NCBI RefSeq assembly: GCF_001682385.1
Contig: NZ_CP016210.1
Location: 930,001 to 994,000, forward strand
Source of the DNA: Azoarcus olearius
Lineage (GTDB): Bacteria; Pseudomonadota; Gammaproteobacteria; Burkholderiales; Rhodocyclaceae
DNA: 64,000 nt
Direction: 5' to 3'
A model generated the notes under the pieces. It was given only the letters and a program-made list of their open reading frames with translations, was not told the origin of the DNA and did no database searches. Position 1 is the stretch's first letter. Each line of letters opens with the position of its first letter. The translations under genes and the position numbers were made by a program. This document shows, piece after piece, positions 28,293 through 33,162 of the stretch.

Positions 28293-29084
28293 TCAGCGTA
28301 CCTGTACCGCTTCCTCTGCCGCGGCGGGGGGCGCCGGCATTGCCGCGGCGCCTGTCTTGCGTTCCATCGCTGTGCCGGCTTCCGTCAGCCCGCACAGCGT
28401 AACGATCGCCGCGCGCGCGTCCCGGCACACCGTCTTGCGGTCCGCGCCGGCGGTGTCGATCGCCGGGCCCACCCGGATGCGGACCTGCAGCCGGCGGTGC
28501 GACACGATGTTGCCAAGGCAGGCGCCCAGGCTCAGCTCGCCGTCGTAAGCCGCCGCGGTGGTGCGCCTGCCGTCGGCGTCGTGATACGACACCGCCACCG
28601 GCTGCACCGGGTGGGCGGATTCCACCGCGGCCTGCAGCAGCGCGGCGTGGAAAGGCAGCACGCGGTTGCCGTCGCTGGTGGTGCCTTCGGGAAAGATCGC
28701 CACGTTCCGGCCCGCATCCAGCAGCGCCGCGATTTCGCCATTGATGATGCGCGCGTGGCCGCGGCTGCCGCGGCGCAGGAATACCGTTTCGCTGCGCGCC
28801 GCGAGCCAGCCGATCACCGGCCAGTCGCGCACTTCCGCCTTCGATACGAAGGCCGAGGGGGTCAGGCTGTTGATGGCGTAGATGTCCAGCCACGAGACGT
28901 GGTTGGCAACCAGCAGTGCGCCCGGCGCAACCGCGGCGCCCTCGATACGCACCTCCACGCCCACCGTGCGCAGCAGCCGGCGCGACCAGCGCTGGCGCAG
29001 GTTGCGCTGCCGCGCCGGGGCGCAGAACGGGTAGAGCAGCGCGATCGTCAGGACGCCCTGCAGGATGTGGAGGGCCAGCCGCAC
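28293..29084 (-). CDS. Lysophospholipid acyltransferase, OlsA/PlsC-like
   Basis: A PlsC-type acyltransferase. It has an N-terminal membrane helix (VRLALHILQGVLTIALLYPF), the catalytic HX4D motif NHVSWLD (about residues 77-83 from the GTG used here), and FPEGTTSDG (about 150). With OlsB immediately upstream it most likely O-acylates lyso-ornithine lipid, though phosphatidic-acid synthesis is not excluded. The start is uncertain: the frame is open to a GTG at 29276 inside olsB, there is no ATG, and the GTG at 29082-29084 has no clear Shine-Dalgarno. Initiation coupled to the olsB stop near 29159 is possible. Confidence 0.85.
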   Translation of the reverse strand: MRLALHILQGVLTIALLYPFCAPARQRNLRQRWSRRLLRTVGVEVRIEGAAVAPGALLVANHVSWLDIYAINSLTPSAFVSKAEVRDWPVIGWLAARSETVFLRRGSRGHARIINGEIAALLDAGRNVAIFPEGTTSDGNRVLPFHAALLQAAVESAHPVQPVAVSYHDADGRRTTAAAYDGELSLGACLGNIVSHRRLQVRIRVGPAIDTAGADRKTVCRDARAAIVTLCGLTEAGTAMERKTGAAAMPAPPAAAEEAVQVR

Positions 29085-29155
29085 ATAACGCCAGCCGCGC
29101 AGCGCCGTGGGGCTGGCGGCGCGACCAGTGGCGCGGCGGGGGTGGGTTTCGGTAT

Positions 29156-29914
29156 TCAGTCCTTGCGTCCCAGGAAGTGCTTGGCGTATTTGCCATCGAC
29201 CTTGCTCATCGGCATCAGGATGGGCAGGTCGGCGGTGTTGAAGTCGGGATCCCACGCGGGTTCGCCGCAGACCCACGCGCCGGCGCGCAGATAGCCCTTG
29301 ATCAGCGGGGGCGCTTCGGCGGGCAGGTCGGAGCGCAGCAGTTCGAGCGGCAGCGGGCAGCGCGGAAAGACGTGGTATTCCAGCGGCGCCAGGTGGGTTT
29401 CCTTGAGCCGATTATACAAGCTGGCCGCCGCGTGCCCGCCGTCGGCCATGCTCACCGAGGCGCAGCCGATCAGGTAGTCGTAGCCGTTTTCCTGCATGTA
29501 GCGCGCGAGTCCGGCCCACAGCAGGGCGATGACCGCGCCGCTGCGGTAGTCGGCGTCGATGCACGAGCGGCCGATCTCGACGATGCGGCTGCGCAGATGC
29601 TGCAGGCGGGTGATATCGAACTCGTTCTCCGAGTAATAGCCACCGACCTTGCGCGCCGCGGCGGGCGACAGAATGCGGTAAGTGCCGACGATGCGGCCGG
29701 CATCCTCGTCGCGCACGATCAGGTGTTCGCAAAAGGGATCGTAGATGTCGCGATCCACCCCCGGTGTGCGTGTGGCCAGGCGGGCGCCCATTTCTTCGGC
29801 GAACACCCGGTAACGCAGCTTCTGCGCTTCGAGGATCTCGGTCTCGCAACTGGCCAGGCCGACGTGGAGGTTGCGGCCGGGGCGGGTGGCGGGCTGCTGG
29901 CTTTTCTGGAGCAT
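29156..29914 (-). CDS. olsB: L-ornithine N-alpha-acyltransferase OlsB-type (GNAT)
   Basis: Transfers a 3-hydroxyacyl group from ACP to the alpha-amine of ornithine, the first step of phosphate-free ornithine lipids. The 252-residue acyl-homoserine-lactone-synthase-like GNAT fold shows EILEAQKLRYRVFAEEMGA (about 27-45), a conserved EIGRSCIDADYRSG (about 112) and YLIGCASV (about 145). GAGGA lies 8 nt before the ATG. The downstream PlsC-like gene would complete the pathway. A Pho-box-like array with a matching -10 lies directly upstream. Confidence 0.9.
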   Translation of the reverse strand: MLQKSQQPATRPGRNLHVGLASCETEILEAQKLRYRVFAEEMGARLATRTPGVDRDIYDPFCEHLIVRDEDAGRIVGTYRILSPAAARKVGGYYSENEFDITRLQHLRSRIVEIGRSCIDADYRSGAVIALLWAGLARYMQENGYDYLIGCASVSMADGGHAAASLYNRLKETHLAPLEYHVFPRCPLPLELLRSDLPAEAPPLIKGYLRAGAWVCGEPAWDPDFNTADLPILMPMSKVDGKYAKHFLGRKD

Positions 29915-29944
29915 GACGGTCCTCGTCCTGTGCGTGATGGATGC

Positions 29945-30000
29945 ATTCTCGAAAGCGGTCGTTGCGCCGCGGTGACGCGTCCGTTACGGCGCGATGACGG
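29945..30000 (-). promoter_or_regulatory. Pho-box-like array and -10 upstream of olsB
   Basis: Read on the minus strand, 7-mers CCGTCAT (30000-29994), CCGTAAC (29989-29983), GCGTCAC (29978-29972) and a weak GCGCAAC (29967-29961) repeat every 11 nt with 4-nt spacers, the architecture of PhoB sites (consensus CTGTCAT/C). Exactly 10 nt after the last unit is GAGAAT (29950-29945), a 4-of-6 -10. The expected start near 29938 leaves a leader with a good Shine-Dalgarno. Confidence 0.6.
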
Positions 30001-30019
30001 CCCGTCCGGGCGGTGGCCG

Positions 30020-30075
30020 GCTTCATCCAAGTGTCACGGGGCGGTCACGTCGCTGTCGCTCGCCGGGCCGACGAT
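30020..30075 (+). promoter_or_regulatory. Pho-box-like array upstream of the glycosyltransferase gene
   Basis: On the plus strand 7-mers GCTTCAT (30020-30026, weak), GTGTCAC (30031-30037), CGGTCAC (30042-30048) and CTGTCGC (30053-30059) repeat with exact 11-nt period and 4-nt spacers. Three units match the PhoB consensus at 6 of 7 positions. A hexamer 10 nt further on, GACGAT (30070-30075), is a poor -10, as is common for activated promoters. The predicted start falls at or next to the ATG at 30082. Confidence 0.6.
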
Positions 30076-30081
30076 GCCGCC

Positions 30082-31302
30082 ATGGACGCGCCGCTCAGCC
30101 TGCAGGATCTCGCCCGTGCAAGTCGCCAGTTGCGCATCGCGCTGGTGACCGAAACCTTTCCGCCGGAGATCAACGGCGTGGCGATGACGACGGGGCGCAT
30201 GGTCGATGGACTGTTGCGGCTGGGGCACCGCGTGCAACTGGTGCGTCCGCGCCAGGGGGCGGACGATCAGCCGGCACGCGGCGAAGGCTATGAGGAAGTG
30301 CTGGCGCGTGGTCTGCCGATTCCGCGTTACAACCATCTGAAGATGGGACTGCCGGCTCGCAGCACGCTGACGCGCATGTGGTCGCTCCGGCGGCCGGATG
30401 TGGTGCAGGTGGTTACCGAAGGGCCGCTCGGGTGGTCGGCGGTGGCGGCGGCGCGCAAGCTGCGGCTGCCGGTCATCACCGAGTTCCACACCAACTTCCA
30501 CAGCTACAGCCGCTACTACGGCATGGGGTGGCTGAAGCAGCCGGTGGAGGCCTATCTGCGGCGCTTTCACAACAAGGGTGACCTGTGTCTGGCGCCCACC
30601 GCGGAACTGGCCGCGCAACTCGCGGCGCGCGGGGTGCGCAAGGTGGACGTGGTGGCACGCGGTGTCGACACCGCCCTGTTCGCCCCGGCGCGGCGCAGCG
30701 AAGCCCTGCGTTCGAGCTGGGGCGCCCGTCCCGAAACCCTGGTGCTGACGGTGGTGGGGCGGCTGGCTGCGGAGAAGAATCTCGGGCTGGCCCTGCGCGC
30801 GTTCGACGCCCTGCGCCAGCGACGCGCCGACGTGCGGCTGGTATTGGTGGGCGACGGTCCGGCCCGCGCGGCGCTGGCCGCCGCCAGTCCGGAAACCGTA
30901 TTCGCCGGCATGCGGACCGGGGCCGACCTTGCCGCCCACTACGCGTCCGCGGACCTGTTCCTGTTCCCCAGCACCACCGAAACCTTCGGCAACGTCACTA
31001 CCGAGGCTTTGGCGAGCGGGCTGCCGGTGATCGGCTTCGACTACGCAGCGGCGGCCGAGCGCATCCGCGGCGGCGACAACGGCTGCCTCGCACCGCTTGG
31101 CGACGAGCAGGGCTTCGTCGAAGCCGTGCTGCGGGTCGGCACCGACGACGCCCTGCGCCTTGCGCTCGCCGCCCGTGCGCGCGACAGCGTGGCCGATGCC
31201 GACTGGGCTGCGGTTGCCCAGCGCCTGGCGGCGGTGATCGAACGCGTGGTCGATCGCCACGAGGCGCGCCTGATCGGCGCCGCGCACGTCGCCGCGGCCT
31301 GA
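30082..31302 (+). CDS. Glycosyltransferase family 4 protein
   Basis: A 406-residue GT-B glycosyltransferase. The N-terminal acceptor domain contains LRIALVTETFPPEINGVAMT (about residues 17-36) and the C-terminal donor domain LFLFPSTTETFGNVTTEALASG with the E-x7-E motif (about 300). It resembles alpha-mannosyl or glucosyl transferases acting on lipids (MgtA/Pim-like). Divergence from olsBA and the Pho-box-like array suggest a glycolipid product made under phosphate limitation, an inference. The ATG has no Shine-Dalgarno, so a leaderless message or a TTG start at 30130 is possible. Confidence 0.85.
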   Translation: MDAPLSLQDLARASRQLRIALVTETFPPEINGVAMTTGRMVDGLLRLGHRVQLVRPRQGADDQPARGEGYEEVLARGLPIPRYNHLKMGLPARSTLTRMWSLRRPDVVQVVTEGPLGWSAVAAARKLRLPVITEFHTNFHSYSRYYGMGWLKQPVEAYLRRFHNKGDLCLAPTAELAAQLAARGVRKVDVVARGVDTALFAPARRSEALRSSWGARPETLVLTVVGRLAAEKNLGLALRAFDALRQRRADVRLVLVGDGPARAALAAASPETVFAGMRTGADLAAHYASADLFLFPSTTETFGNVTTEALASGLPVIGFDYAAAAERIRGGDNGCLAPLGDEQGFVEAVLRVGTDDALRLALAARARDSVADADWAAVAQRLAAVIERVVDRHEARLIGAAHVAAA

Positions 31303-31365: not shown

Positions 31366-32301
31366 ATGTCCATCCTCGTATGCGGTTCGATGGCCTATGA
31401 CTCGATCATGGTCTTTCAGGACCGGTTCTCGAACCACATCCTCCCCGAGCAGATCCACATCCTCAACGTGTCCTTCTTCGTGCCCGAGCTGCGGCGCGAG
31501 TTCGGTGGCTGCGCGGGCAACATCGCCTACAACCTGAAGCTGCTCGGCAGCGAGCCGCTGATCATGGCCACCGTCGGCGACGATGCCGGGCCTTACCGCG
31601 AGCGCCTGCAGGCACTGGGCCTGCGTCAGGACTACGTGCGGGGCGTGCCGGGCACCTTTACCGCGCAAGCCTTCATCACCACCGACCTGGACGACAACCA
31701 GATCACCGCCTTTCACCCCGGGGCGATGATGCAGTCGCACCTCAACGATGCCGGGCAGGCGGAGGGCGTCAGGCTTGCGATCGTGTCGCCCGACGGCCGC
31801 GACGGCATGCTGCGCCATGCCGAAGGGCTGGCGGCGGCAGGTGTGCCCTTCATCTTCGACCCAGGTCAGGCGCTGCCCATCCTGTCCGGCGATGAACTGC
31901 TGCGCTGCCTGCAACTGGCTACCTACTGCACGGTCAATGATTACGAGGCGCGCCTGATGAGCGAGAAAACCGGCCGCTCGATCGAGCAGCTGGCCAATGA
32001 GGTCGATGGCCTGGTCGTGACCCTCGGCGCAGAGGGCTCCCGGGTCCACGCCGATGGCGCGGCGGTGATCATCCCCGCGGTGGAGGCCGATGCAGTGGTG
32101 GATCCGACCGGGTGTGGCGATGCCTACCGTGCCGGCTTGCTGCACGGCCTGTCGCAAGGGTGGGATTGGGTGCGCACCGGCCGCCTGGCGGCGGTGATGG
32201 GCGCGATCAAGATCGCTCACCGCGGCGGGCAGAACCATGCGCCCACGCGGGCGGACATTGCGGCGCGCTATCTCGCCGCTTTTGGAGAGGCACTATGGTG
32301 A
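31366..32301 (+). CDS. PfkB-family carbohydrate/nucleoside kinase
   Basis: A 311-residue ribokinase-fold kinase. PfkB signature 1 is around GGCAGNIAYNLKLLG (about residues 47-61) and signature 2 is DPTGCGDAYRAG (about 247-258), with the catalytic Asp. Betaproteobacterial members are often annotated as adenosine kinase or sugar kinase; the substrate cannot be told from the sequence. The following lipoprotein ATG lies inside its last codons, so translation is coupled. Confidence 0.9.
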   Translation: MSILVCGSMAYDSIMVFQDRFSNHILPEQIHILNVSFFVPELRREFGGCAGNIAYNLKLLGSEPLIMATVGDDAGPYRERLQALGLRQDYVRGVPGTFTAQAFITTDLDDNQITAFHPGAMMQSHLNDAGQAEGVRLAIVSPDGRDGMLRHAEGLAAAGVPFIFDPGQALPILSGDELLRCLQLATYCTVNDYEARLMSEKTGRSIEQLANEVDGLVVTLGAEGSRVHADGAAVIIPAVEADAVVDPTGCGDAYRAGLLHGLSQGWDWVRTGRLAAVMGAIKIAHRGGQNHAPTRADIAARYLAAFGEALW

Positions 32302-32769: not shown

Positions 32770-33162
32770 TCATCCGAACAGCACCAGACCCCACACCATC
32801 GCGAGATTGAGCAGCGCCACCAGCACGGCGGCGCTGCCGATGTCCTTTGCGCGCTTGGCGAGCTGGTGATGGTCGAGCGAGACGCGGTCCACCGTGGCCT
32901 CGATCGCCGAGTTGAGCAGCTCCACGATCAGCACCAGCAGCGTGCTGCCGACCAGCAGCGCCTTGCCCGCGCCGTCGGTGGGCGCGACGAAGGCGAGCGG
33001 GATCAGCACCGCGGCGAGCAGGCATTCCTGGCGAAAGGCGTCTTCGTGCCGGAGGGCGGCACGCAACCCGGCGAGCGAGTAGCGGAAGGCGTTCCAGATG
33101 CGGGGGAGGCCGGTCTTGCCCTTGAACGGGCTTTCCGCGTGTTTCGAGTTGGTCGGGTCCAT
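32770..33162 (-). CDS. dgkA: Diacylglycerol kinase (prokaryotic DgkA type)
   Basis: Recycles diacylglycerol to phosphatidate at the inner membrane. The 130 residues show three transmembrane helices and the family signature ELLNSAIEATVDRVSLDHH followed by AKRAKDIGSAAV (about 82-115) with the catalytic Glu. The N-terminal dozen residues, ending KGKTGLPRIWNAFRYSL, are typical. It lies alone 108 nt downstream of the DUF3426 gene. Confidence 0.96.
   Translation of the reverse strand: MDPTNSKHAESPFKGKTGLPRIWNAFRYSLAGLRAALRHEDAFRQECLLAAVLIPLAFVAPTDGAGKALLVGSTLLVLIVELLNSAIEATVDRVSLDHHQLAKRAKDIGSAAVLVALLNLAMVWGLVLFG

Follow-up and report, generated by a model that had tools for sequence, protein, structure and literature searches.

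Facing PhoB-type promoter arrays between olsB and a probable glycolipid glycosyltransferase gene in Azoarcus olearius, with a conserved start codon at the predicted transcription start

The genome of Azoarcus olearius is a single contig of 4,451,751 bases, and the window analysed here is the 64,000-nucleotide stretch from base 930001 to base 994000 (positions given below are those of the window unless a genomic coordinate is indicated). Within the window, olsB and a glycosyltransferase gene point away from each other across an intergenic gap of 167 bp (29915-30081). On the minus strand, olsB (29156..29914) is predicted to encode an ornithine N-acyltransferase of 252 aa and has a Shine-Dalgarno (SD)-like AGGA upstream of its ATG; its product matches Pfam Acetyltransf_5 (E 1.1e-37) and, as the best NCBIfam model, OlsB (E 8.7e-49), where its score of 166.6 bits stays below the cut-off of 350, and an olsB match at E <= 0.001 is present in 125 of the 150 family genomes. 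The gene that follows on the same strand (28293..29158), which overlaps or abuts the olsB stop codon, is a probable olsA encoding a lyso-ornithine-lipid O-acyltransferase. A previous sequence-only reading of this locus had called its product a PlsC-like acyltransferase; it does match Pfam Acyltransferase (E 1.3e-24), and OlsA models fit it best, although below their cut-offs (E 2.7e-46 for the top NCBIfam model, whose cut-off of 300 compares with a score of 157.9 bits). The start codon of olsA is uncertain, and its open frame runs from 29276. On the plus strand, the glycosyltransferase gene (30082..31302) encodes 406 aa of the GT4 family (GT-B fold), probably a glycolipid synthase of the Agt type. 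A pfkB-family kinase gene (31366..32301, plus strand; Pfam) lies downstream of it, and whether the two are co-transcribed is uncertain because a TATAAT in the gap between them could be the kinase gene's own -10. Further on, dgkA (32770..33162, minus strand; Pfam DAGK_prokar) encodes a diacylglycerol kinase, and in relatives dgkA is often directly upstream of the glycosyltransferase gene.

The gap contains two opposed sets of four 7-mers, each with an 11-nt period, and all eight units described by the sequence-only reading were recovered in place. The array of the olsB promoter (29961..30000, minus strand) consists of CCGTCAT (29994-30000), CCGTAAC (29983-29989), GCGTCAC (29972-29978) and GCGCAAC (29961-29967), and the -10 hexamer that had been proposed for it, GAGAAT (29945..29950, minus strand), likewise lies 10 nt past the last unit. 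Transcription of olsB is predicted to start near 29938, which would give a leader of about 24 nt. The array of the glycosyltransferase promoter (30020..30059, plus strand) consists of GCTTCAT (30020-30026), GTGTCAC (30031-30037), CGGTCAC (30042-30048) and CTGTCGC (30053-30059). Exactly 10 nt past this array is a -10 hexamer, GACGAT (30070..30075, plus strand), that had been missed before.

The comparison across relatives that the sequence-only reading had proposed came out in its favour. Upstream of olsB, an automatic test detected an array with its -10 in 29 of the 30 family loci and inspection by eye found 28 of the 30 to be canonical, the exceptions being L036 and L038. Upstream of the glycosyltransferase gene, an array with its -10 is present in 66 of 98 family regions, made up of 30 loci, 13 places in larger regions and 55 short stretches; the A. 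olearius glycosyltransferase gene itself is included, as is its second copy in the same genome (G000:C1:2049685-2050830, 49%), upstream of which (L152) no array was found. In relatives, the -10 hexamers of the glycosyltransferase promoters (CAGGAT, CAGCAT, GACACT, TAAGCT and similar) occupy the same position. At least nine of the 32 failing regions sit just after a dgkA-like gene, and the glycosyltransferase genes so placed may share a promoter further upstream. In named genomes, 75 of 80 glycosyltransferase upstream regions pass the array and -10 test, these being the best 80 of at least 584 matches and mostly from Rhodocyclales and other Betaproteobacteria. By a looser two-unit test, an array with its -10 was also found in 28 of 41 further genomes of the class, selected from 369 searched for having a match with an E value of 1e-75 or lower. 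The family, named and class sets overlap partly and are related by descent, and their counts are not independent. Overall, the features of a PhoB-type promoter, namely 7-mer repeats at an 11-nt period, a -10 at 10 nt and conservation in relatives, are present. The arrays are kept even where the two genes are unlinked: in G067, ~140 kb separate olsB from the glycosyltransferase gene, and an array precedes both (L016, L041). The sequence-only reading had proposed a single Pho-controlled remodelling unit; because the genes are often unlinked, the arrangement is better described as one putative regulon than as a fixed unit.

We then considered the position of the glycosyltransferase start codon. 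In A. olearius, GCCGCC separates GACGAT from the ATG at 30082..30084. By canonical numbering the -10 hexamer ends at -7, and an ATG 6 nt past it is therefore the predicted +1. The message may thus be leaderless, as the sequence-only reading had guessed, because translation would begin where transcription is predicted to begin, and the comparison of promoters now supports that guess better. The first 19 glycosyltransferase promoters inspected were picked from the 30 loci for their clear arrays, and 19 of 19 have an in-frame ATG 6-8 nt past the -10, although the region aligned by BLAST often starts only later in the gene. Across all array-bearing family promoters, with ATG alone taken as start codon, this spacing is found in 64 of 66 (25 at 6 nt, 21 at 7 nt and 18 at 8 nt), and all 64 ATGs are in frame, 59 as determined by the upstream script and five by translation (L155, L157, L197, L199 and L237). 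The two exceptions are L050, where the ATG is 56 nt away, and L203, which has no ATG at 6-8 nt. Among the 75 promoters of the named set, 67 have an ATG at 6-8 nt and four a GTG at 6 or 7 nt; in L283 and L306 the ATG is at 17 nt, a distance that drops to 6 nt when the array is shifted one unit downstream, and the outliers are L310 (ATG at 10 nt) and L251 (51 nt). In control promoters, an ATG 6-8 nt past the -10 occurs in 1/29 for olsB, 0/29 for pstS and 0/18 for phoB, the first in-frame ATG of these control genes being 21-40 nt from the -10 in 63 of 76. Nearly every array-bearing family promoter thus has the ATG at this distance, as do those of many other Betaproteobacteria. Given this spacing, the glycosyltransferase array ends 22-24 nt before the ATG; a promoter study of Sinorhizobium meliloti places the PhoB box 22-25 nt before the mapped start for 16 of the 33 genes with predicted boxes (PMC3616915).

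Of the alternatives to the reading as a whole, the one that survives best accepts the arrays as PhoB sites and gives the glycosyltransferase message an ordinary leader, either from another start upstream or through an internal start codon. Some relatives outside the family that have the same kind of promoter appear by eye to have SD-like leaders (L341, L342 and L349), and the distant ATGs of L050 and L251, together with the missing one of L203, would fit such an arrangement. The fixed position of the start in the family promoters weighs against it, all the more as the stretch that follows the start varies in length. Furthermore, in L155, L157, L167 and L199 the conserved core starts within two codons of the ATG, so that a later start would cut into the core, removing part of its first strand. 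SD pairing is also weak, with a mean of -2.5 kcal/mol for the 64 glycosyltransferase genes versus -5.8 kcal/mol for 24 of the 30 olsB genes, and pairing at -5 kcal/mol or below is reached by 9/64 of the former versus 17/24 of the latter. Finally, third-position bias begins at the predicted ATG: in codons 2-18, eight pairs of relatives, which share sequences among them, show 44 changes at third positions, compared to 21 at first and 15 at second positions. We consider an ordinary leader unlikely for these reasons, and the glycosyltransferase gene of the family looks like one with a conserved, leaderless, PhoB-driven message. Outside the family, a start codon 5-9 nt past the -10 was found in only 14 of 28 array-bearing upstream regions, which, with the SD-like leaders seen there, indicates that the leaderless state is a feature of a large clade and not of all agt-like genes.

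The identity of the glycosyltransferase bears on what the promoter pair would control. The protein matches Pfam Glyco_transf_4 and Glycos_transf_1, and its predicted structure (mean pLDDT 86.5, pTM 0.83) resembles MshA and BshA best, followed by PimB' and PimA. One could propose from this that the enzyme makes part of a surface polysaccharide or lipopolysaccharide instead of a membrane glycolipid, since the solved structures that it resembles most, MshA and BshA, belong to general GT4 enzymes and since none of the 25 NCBIfam models listed, out of 35 matched, scores above its cut-off. Yet the two best of these sub-threshold families are both lipid glycosyltransferases, the glucosaminyl (GlcN)-phosphatidylglycerol and monoglucosyl-diacylglycerol synthases, and the predicted Pho control of the gene and the identity of its neighbours likewise speak for membrane lipids. 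Within 2.5 kb of the glycosyltransferase gene, in the 80 named loci (the best 80 of at least 584), we found dgkA in 32, pfkB in 26, olsB and a plcP-like gene in 22 each, and olsA in 10. In 17 regions of relatives, partly picked for closely spaced genes, a PlcP-like phosphoesterase gene is present in nine and adjoins the glycosyltransferase gene in eight of those; six of the 17 also contain pstS (L153, L156, L157, L158, L160 and L165). In L154 the genes follow one another on a single strand in the order olsA-olsB-GT'-dgkA-GT-plcP, where GT' denotes a second glycosyltransferase gene. A. olearius has a PlcP-like gene of its own (G000:C1:2478517-2479245), 71% identical to one that adjoins a relative's glycosyltransferase gene, and upstream of it CGTTCAT, TTGTCAC, 10 nt and CAGGCT can be read by eye. 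The relative's protein, which served as the query, matches LpxH-type models, all below cut-off. A role in polysaccharide or lipopolysaccharide synthesis therefore strikes us as improbable, and the protein is probably the Agt glycolipid synthase of a PlcP-Agt pathway, to judge from family and neighbourhood. From the same neighbourhood and family matches, the closest known system is PlcP-Agt combined with OlsBA.

To assess the arrays as PhoB sites, the window was scanned with several models. With the E. coli consensus CTGTCAY x 4, used for the first scan, the plus array (22/28) is the top place on both strands of the 64 kb and the minus array (19/28) is tied second with one other place, overlapping registers set aside. 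An independent unit matrix was derived from 29 pstS and 29 phoB promoter loci of relatives by an expectation-maximisation search that was seeded with the consensus and defined a site as a pair of units followed, after 10 nt, by a -10 of the form NANNNT. The best site reaches at least 15 bits in 57 of these 58 promoters (L138 scores 3.6), with the same 10-nt distance that the sequence-only reading had likened to known PhoB promoters; a stricter automatic test is passed by 29/29 pstS and 18/29 phoB promoters. With the full 34-column matrix, the olsB array comes out on top by a small margin (0.66, next place 0.25), and the glycosyltransferase array is not among the top 15 places. This matrix is too bound to the spacer sequence of phoB, and the 114 units of the 57 promoters (L138 dropped) were therefore pooled into a 7-column matrix. 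In a four-unit scan of the window with the latter, the minus array (23.1 bits) and the plus array (22.2 bits) are the top two places, compared to 11.05 bits for the third and 13.7 bits for the best place in 100 order-2 Markov windows. The expectation that a PhoB matrix would single out both arrays thus holds for pooled units, far above background, but not for the full matrix. In both arrays the proximal unit scores low, at 0.1 and 2.2 bits. Two-unit scores are not significant, as the best pair is reached in 16 of 100 simulations, and because pairs alone fall within the simulated range the strength of the signal lies in the longer array. A simple pattern, GTMAY x 3 at an 11-nt period, has one exact occurrence in the 4.45-Mb genome, in the olsB array; with up to one mismatch it occurs at 11 places genome-wide, four of them in the gap (two overlapping registers per array), compared to one place for the reversed-pattern control. 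Another of the 11 is a unit array upstream of a gene that we take to be polyphosphate kinase (ppk), without a clear -10 at 10 nt. One pattern match (L176) sits in an apparent tRNA gene, and no gene clearly follows another four-unit array, at G000:C1:1894315.

A further model (R1) drew on the promoters of olsB and the glycosyltransferase gene, using 48 of 60 arrays; the two A. olearius arrays (L009 and L039) were left out, and L036, L038, L050, L056, L057, L060, L062, L064, L065 and L068 were also dropped. In the A. olearius genome R1 ranks the two gap arrays first and second (E 1.3e-11 and 3.4e-7), the next place having E 0.003, and neither pstS nor phoB is among its hits with E values of 10 or less. 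Read directly from the sequence, phoB and both pstS genes of A. olearius each have two units, 10 nt and a -10, and the pair of the main pstS fits the E. coli consensus poorly (9/14). It could be argued that the arrays serve an OmpR-family regulator other than PhoB whose direct repeats look alike, as the genome contains 15 places with Trans_reg_C family matches and the proximal units depart from consensus. Set against this, a unit matrix derived from pstS and phoB scores the arrays far above the rest of the window and the gene neighbours in relatives include pstS and plcP, and we regard a different regulator as very improbable. One PhoB of the genome scores above the TIGR02154 cut-off. Chance or compositional repeats in a GC-rich gap, an explanation to which the two-unit scores alone would lend themselves, are ruled out by the in-register conservation with a fixed -10 in tens of genomes and by simulation, both four-unit arrays scoring more than 8 bits above all 100 simulated windows.

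Several elements of this arrangement have precedents, and Pho control of olsB, and of Agt together with PlcP, is already known, as are leaderless messages, which make up a few per cent of Betaproteobacterial starts. In accessible parts of the published studies, a Pho box is reported upstream of olsB in 21 of 43 genomes of Burkholderia sensu lato, and in 43 of 43 with a second matrix (PMC7814305), and Pho control of olsB in Acinetobacter (PMC11828411). The A. olearius locus resembles the PhoB-controlled olsB genes of Sinorhizobium, Burkholderia s.l. and Acinetobacter in having a Pho box upstream of olsB, and differs from them in that its box comprises four units and faces a second four-unit array that belongs to a probable glycolipid glycosyltransferase gene. 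Similarly, the text seen of two further studies describes, in Pseudomonas aeruginosa, the Pho-box-controlled glycosyltransferases Agt1/Agt2 paired with the PlcP phosphoesterase (PMC8528852) and, in marine heterotrophs, lipid remodelling by PlcP-Agt (PMC4796936). A. olearius shares with these systems a GT4 glycosyltransferase gene with a Pho-box promoter, and its PlcP-like gene, with what reads as a two-unit box, is a candidate for the partner phosphoesterase. Here the agt-like gene adjoins olsB, the plcP-like gene is ~1.5 Mb away and the agt-like message looks leaderless. As regards leaderless messages, the sections consulted give 4.67% of primary starts as leaderless (5' UTR <5 nt) in Cupriavidus metallidurans (PMC7563307) and, in Burkholderia cenocepacia, 72 genes whose transcription begins right at the start codon, plus another 42 in which it begins within 10 nt; 24 tRNAs are included in this list (PMC4603805). 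So far as these sections go, both lists are from single genomes and enriched in regulators, whereas the present case concerns one metabolic gene in many genera. The Sinorhizobium meliloti promoter study describes the PhoB box as replacing the -35, and no leaderless Pho gene was seen in its accessible text, supplementary tables aside (PMC3616915); in PMC3160421 the term 'Pho box' occurs only within the reference list. Among the mostly open-access papers searched, in their main texts, none was found to describe a leaderless agt, any other Pho-regulated lipid gene with a leaderless message, or this divergent array. The new observation is the conserved glycosyltransferase ATG 6-8 nt past the -10 in array-bearing promoters, for which we found no earlier report.

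The arrays, the promoter spacing, the conservation, the gene neighbourhood and the position of the start codon were all computed, and from them we infer how the locus would work. When phosphate is low, phosphorylated PhoB would bind both four-unit arrays in tandem and, substituting for the missing -35 contacts, would recruit RNA polymerase to the -10 hexamers 10 nt from the arrays. Leftward induction would yield an olsB-olsA mRNA with a normal leader and hence ornithine lipids. Rightward induction would yield the mRNA of the GT4 glycosyltransferase, which, if the predicted +1 is exact, would begin with its AUG. The PlcP-like phosphoesterase would convert phospholipid to diacylglycerol, from which the glycosyltransferase would make a glycolipid, sparing phosphate. 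We put the probability of this reading as a whole, that is, a divergent PhoB-activated promoter pair with ornithine lipids from olsBA, a leaderless glycosyltransferase mRNA and a glycolipid made by PlcP and the glycosyltransferase, at roughly 0.82. Any purpose of leaderlessness is a more speculative matter. It is possible, though we suggest it only tentatively and would sooner bet against it, that the leaderless state has been selected: the agt-type synthase of Betaproteobacteria would have become locked to a PhoB promoter with its start codon as +1 because SD-free translation by intact 70S ribosomes works when starvation cuts ribosome capacity, while olsB, plcP, pstS and phoB keep their leaders.

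For Azoarcus-type Betaproteobacteria, the reading preferred here would place the synthesis of both ornithine lipids and glycolipid under a single divergent Pho switch. It also has a practical bearing on start-codon annotation, as the promoter marks the gene start in most array-bearing family members. Finally, a single regulator would, within one cell, control both leadered genes (olsB, pstS and phoB) and a leaderless one, and the question of whether starvation favours leaderless messages therefore becomes testable inside one regulon.

The unit nearest the promoter is off-consensus in the Pho-like arrays of both olsB and the glycosyltransferase, and its pattern differs by gene: in olsB arrays it is frequently xxGCAAY, and in glycosyltransferase arrays it is frequently TGTCGC or TGTCTT. 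Further Pho-like arrays were found in the A. olearius genome itself. One, with three units (G000:C1:1955418-1955444; L179), lies directly 5' of a polyphosphate kinase-like gene, and no clear -10 was found at the 10-nt distance from this array. Another, with four units (G000:C1:1894312-1894366; L071, L177), has TAGCCT as a possible -10 and is followed only by a short open frame.

The same genome contains a second copy of the glycosyltransferase (G000:C1:2049685-2050830; L152; 49% identity), upstream of which a Pho array is absent, and a second pstS-like gene (G000:C1:378715-379623; L093), preceded by CTGTAAC and CGGTAAC, then 10 nt and CAGCAT. Some relatives (at L153, L158 and places on contig 18 of the relative G022) carry olsB and pstS side by side in divergent orientation, possibly with another Pho control region common to both genes.

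In the window, dgkA (32770-33162) is located 1.5 kb away from the glycosyltransferase, on the opposite strand. In relatives, dgkA frequently adjoins the glycosyltransferase or stands directly 5' of it, and among the 80 best of 584 glycosyltransferase matches in named genomes, 32 loci have dgkA within 2.5 kb. The proximity of the two genes suggests that diacylglycerol recycling is connected with glycolipid synthesis.
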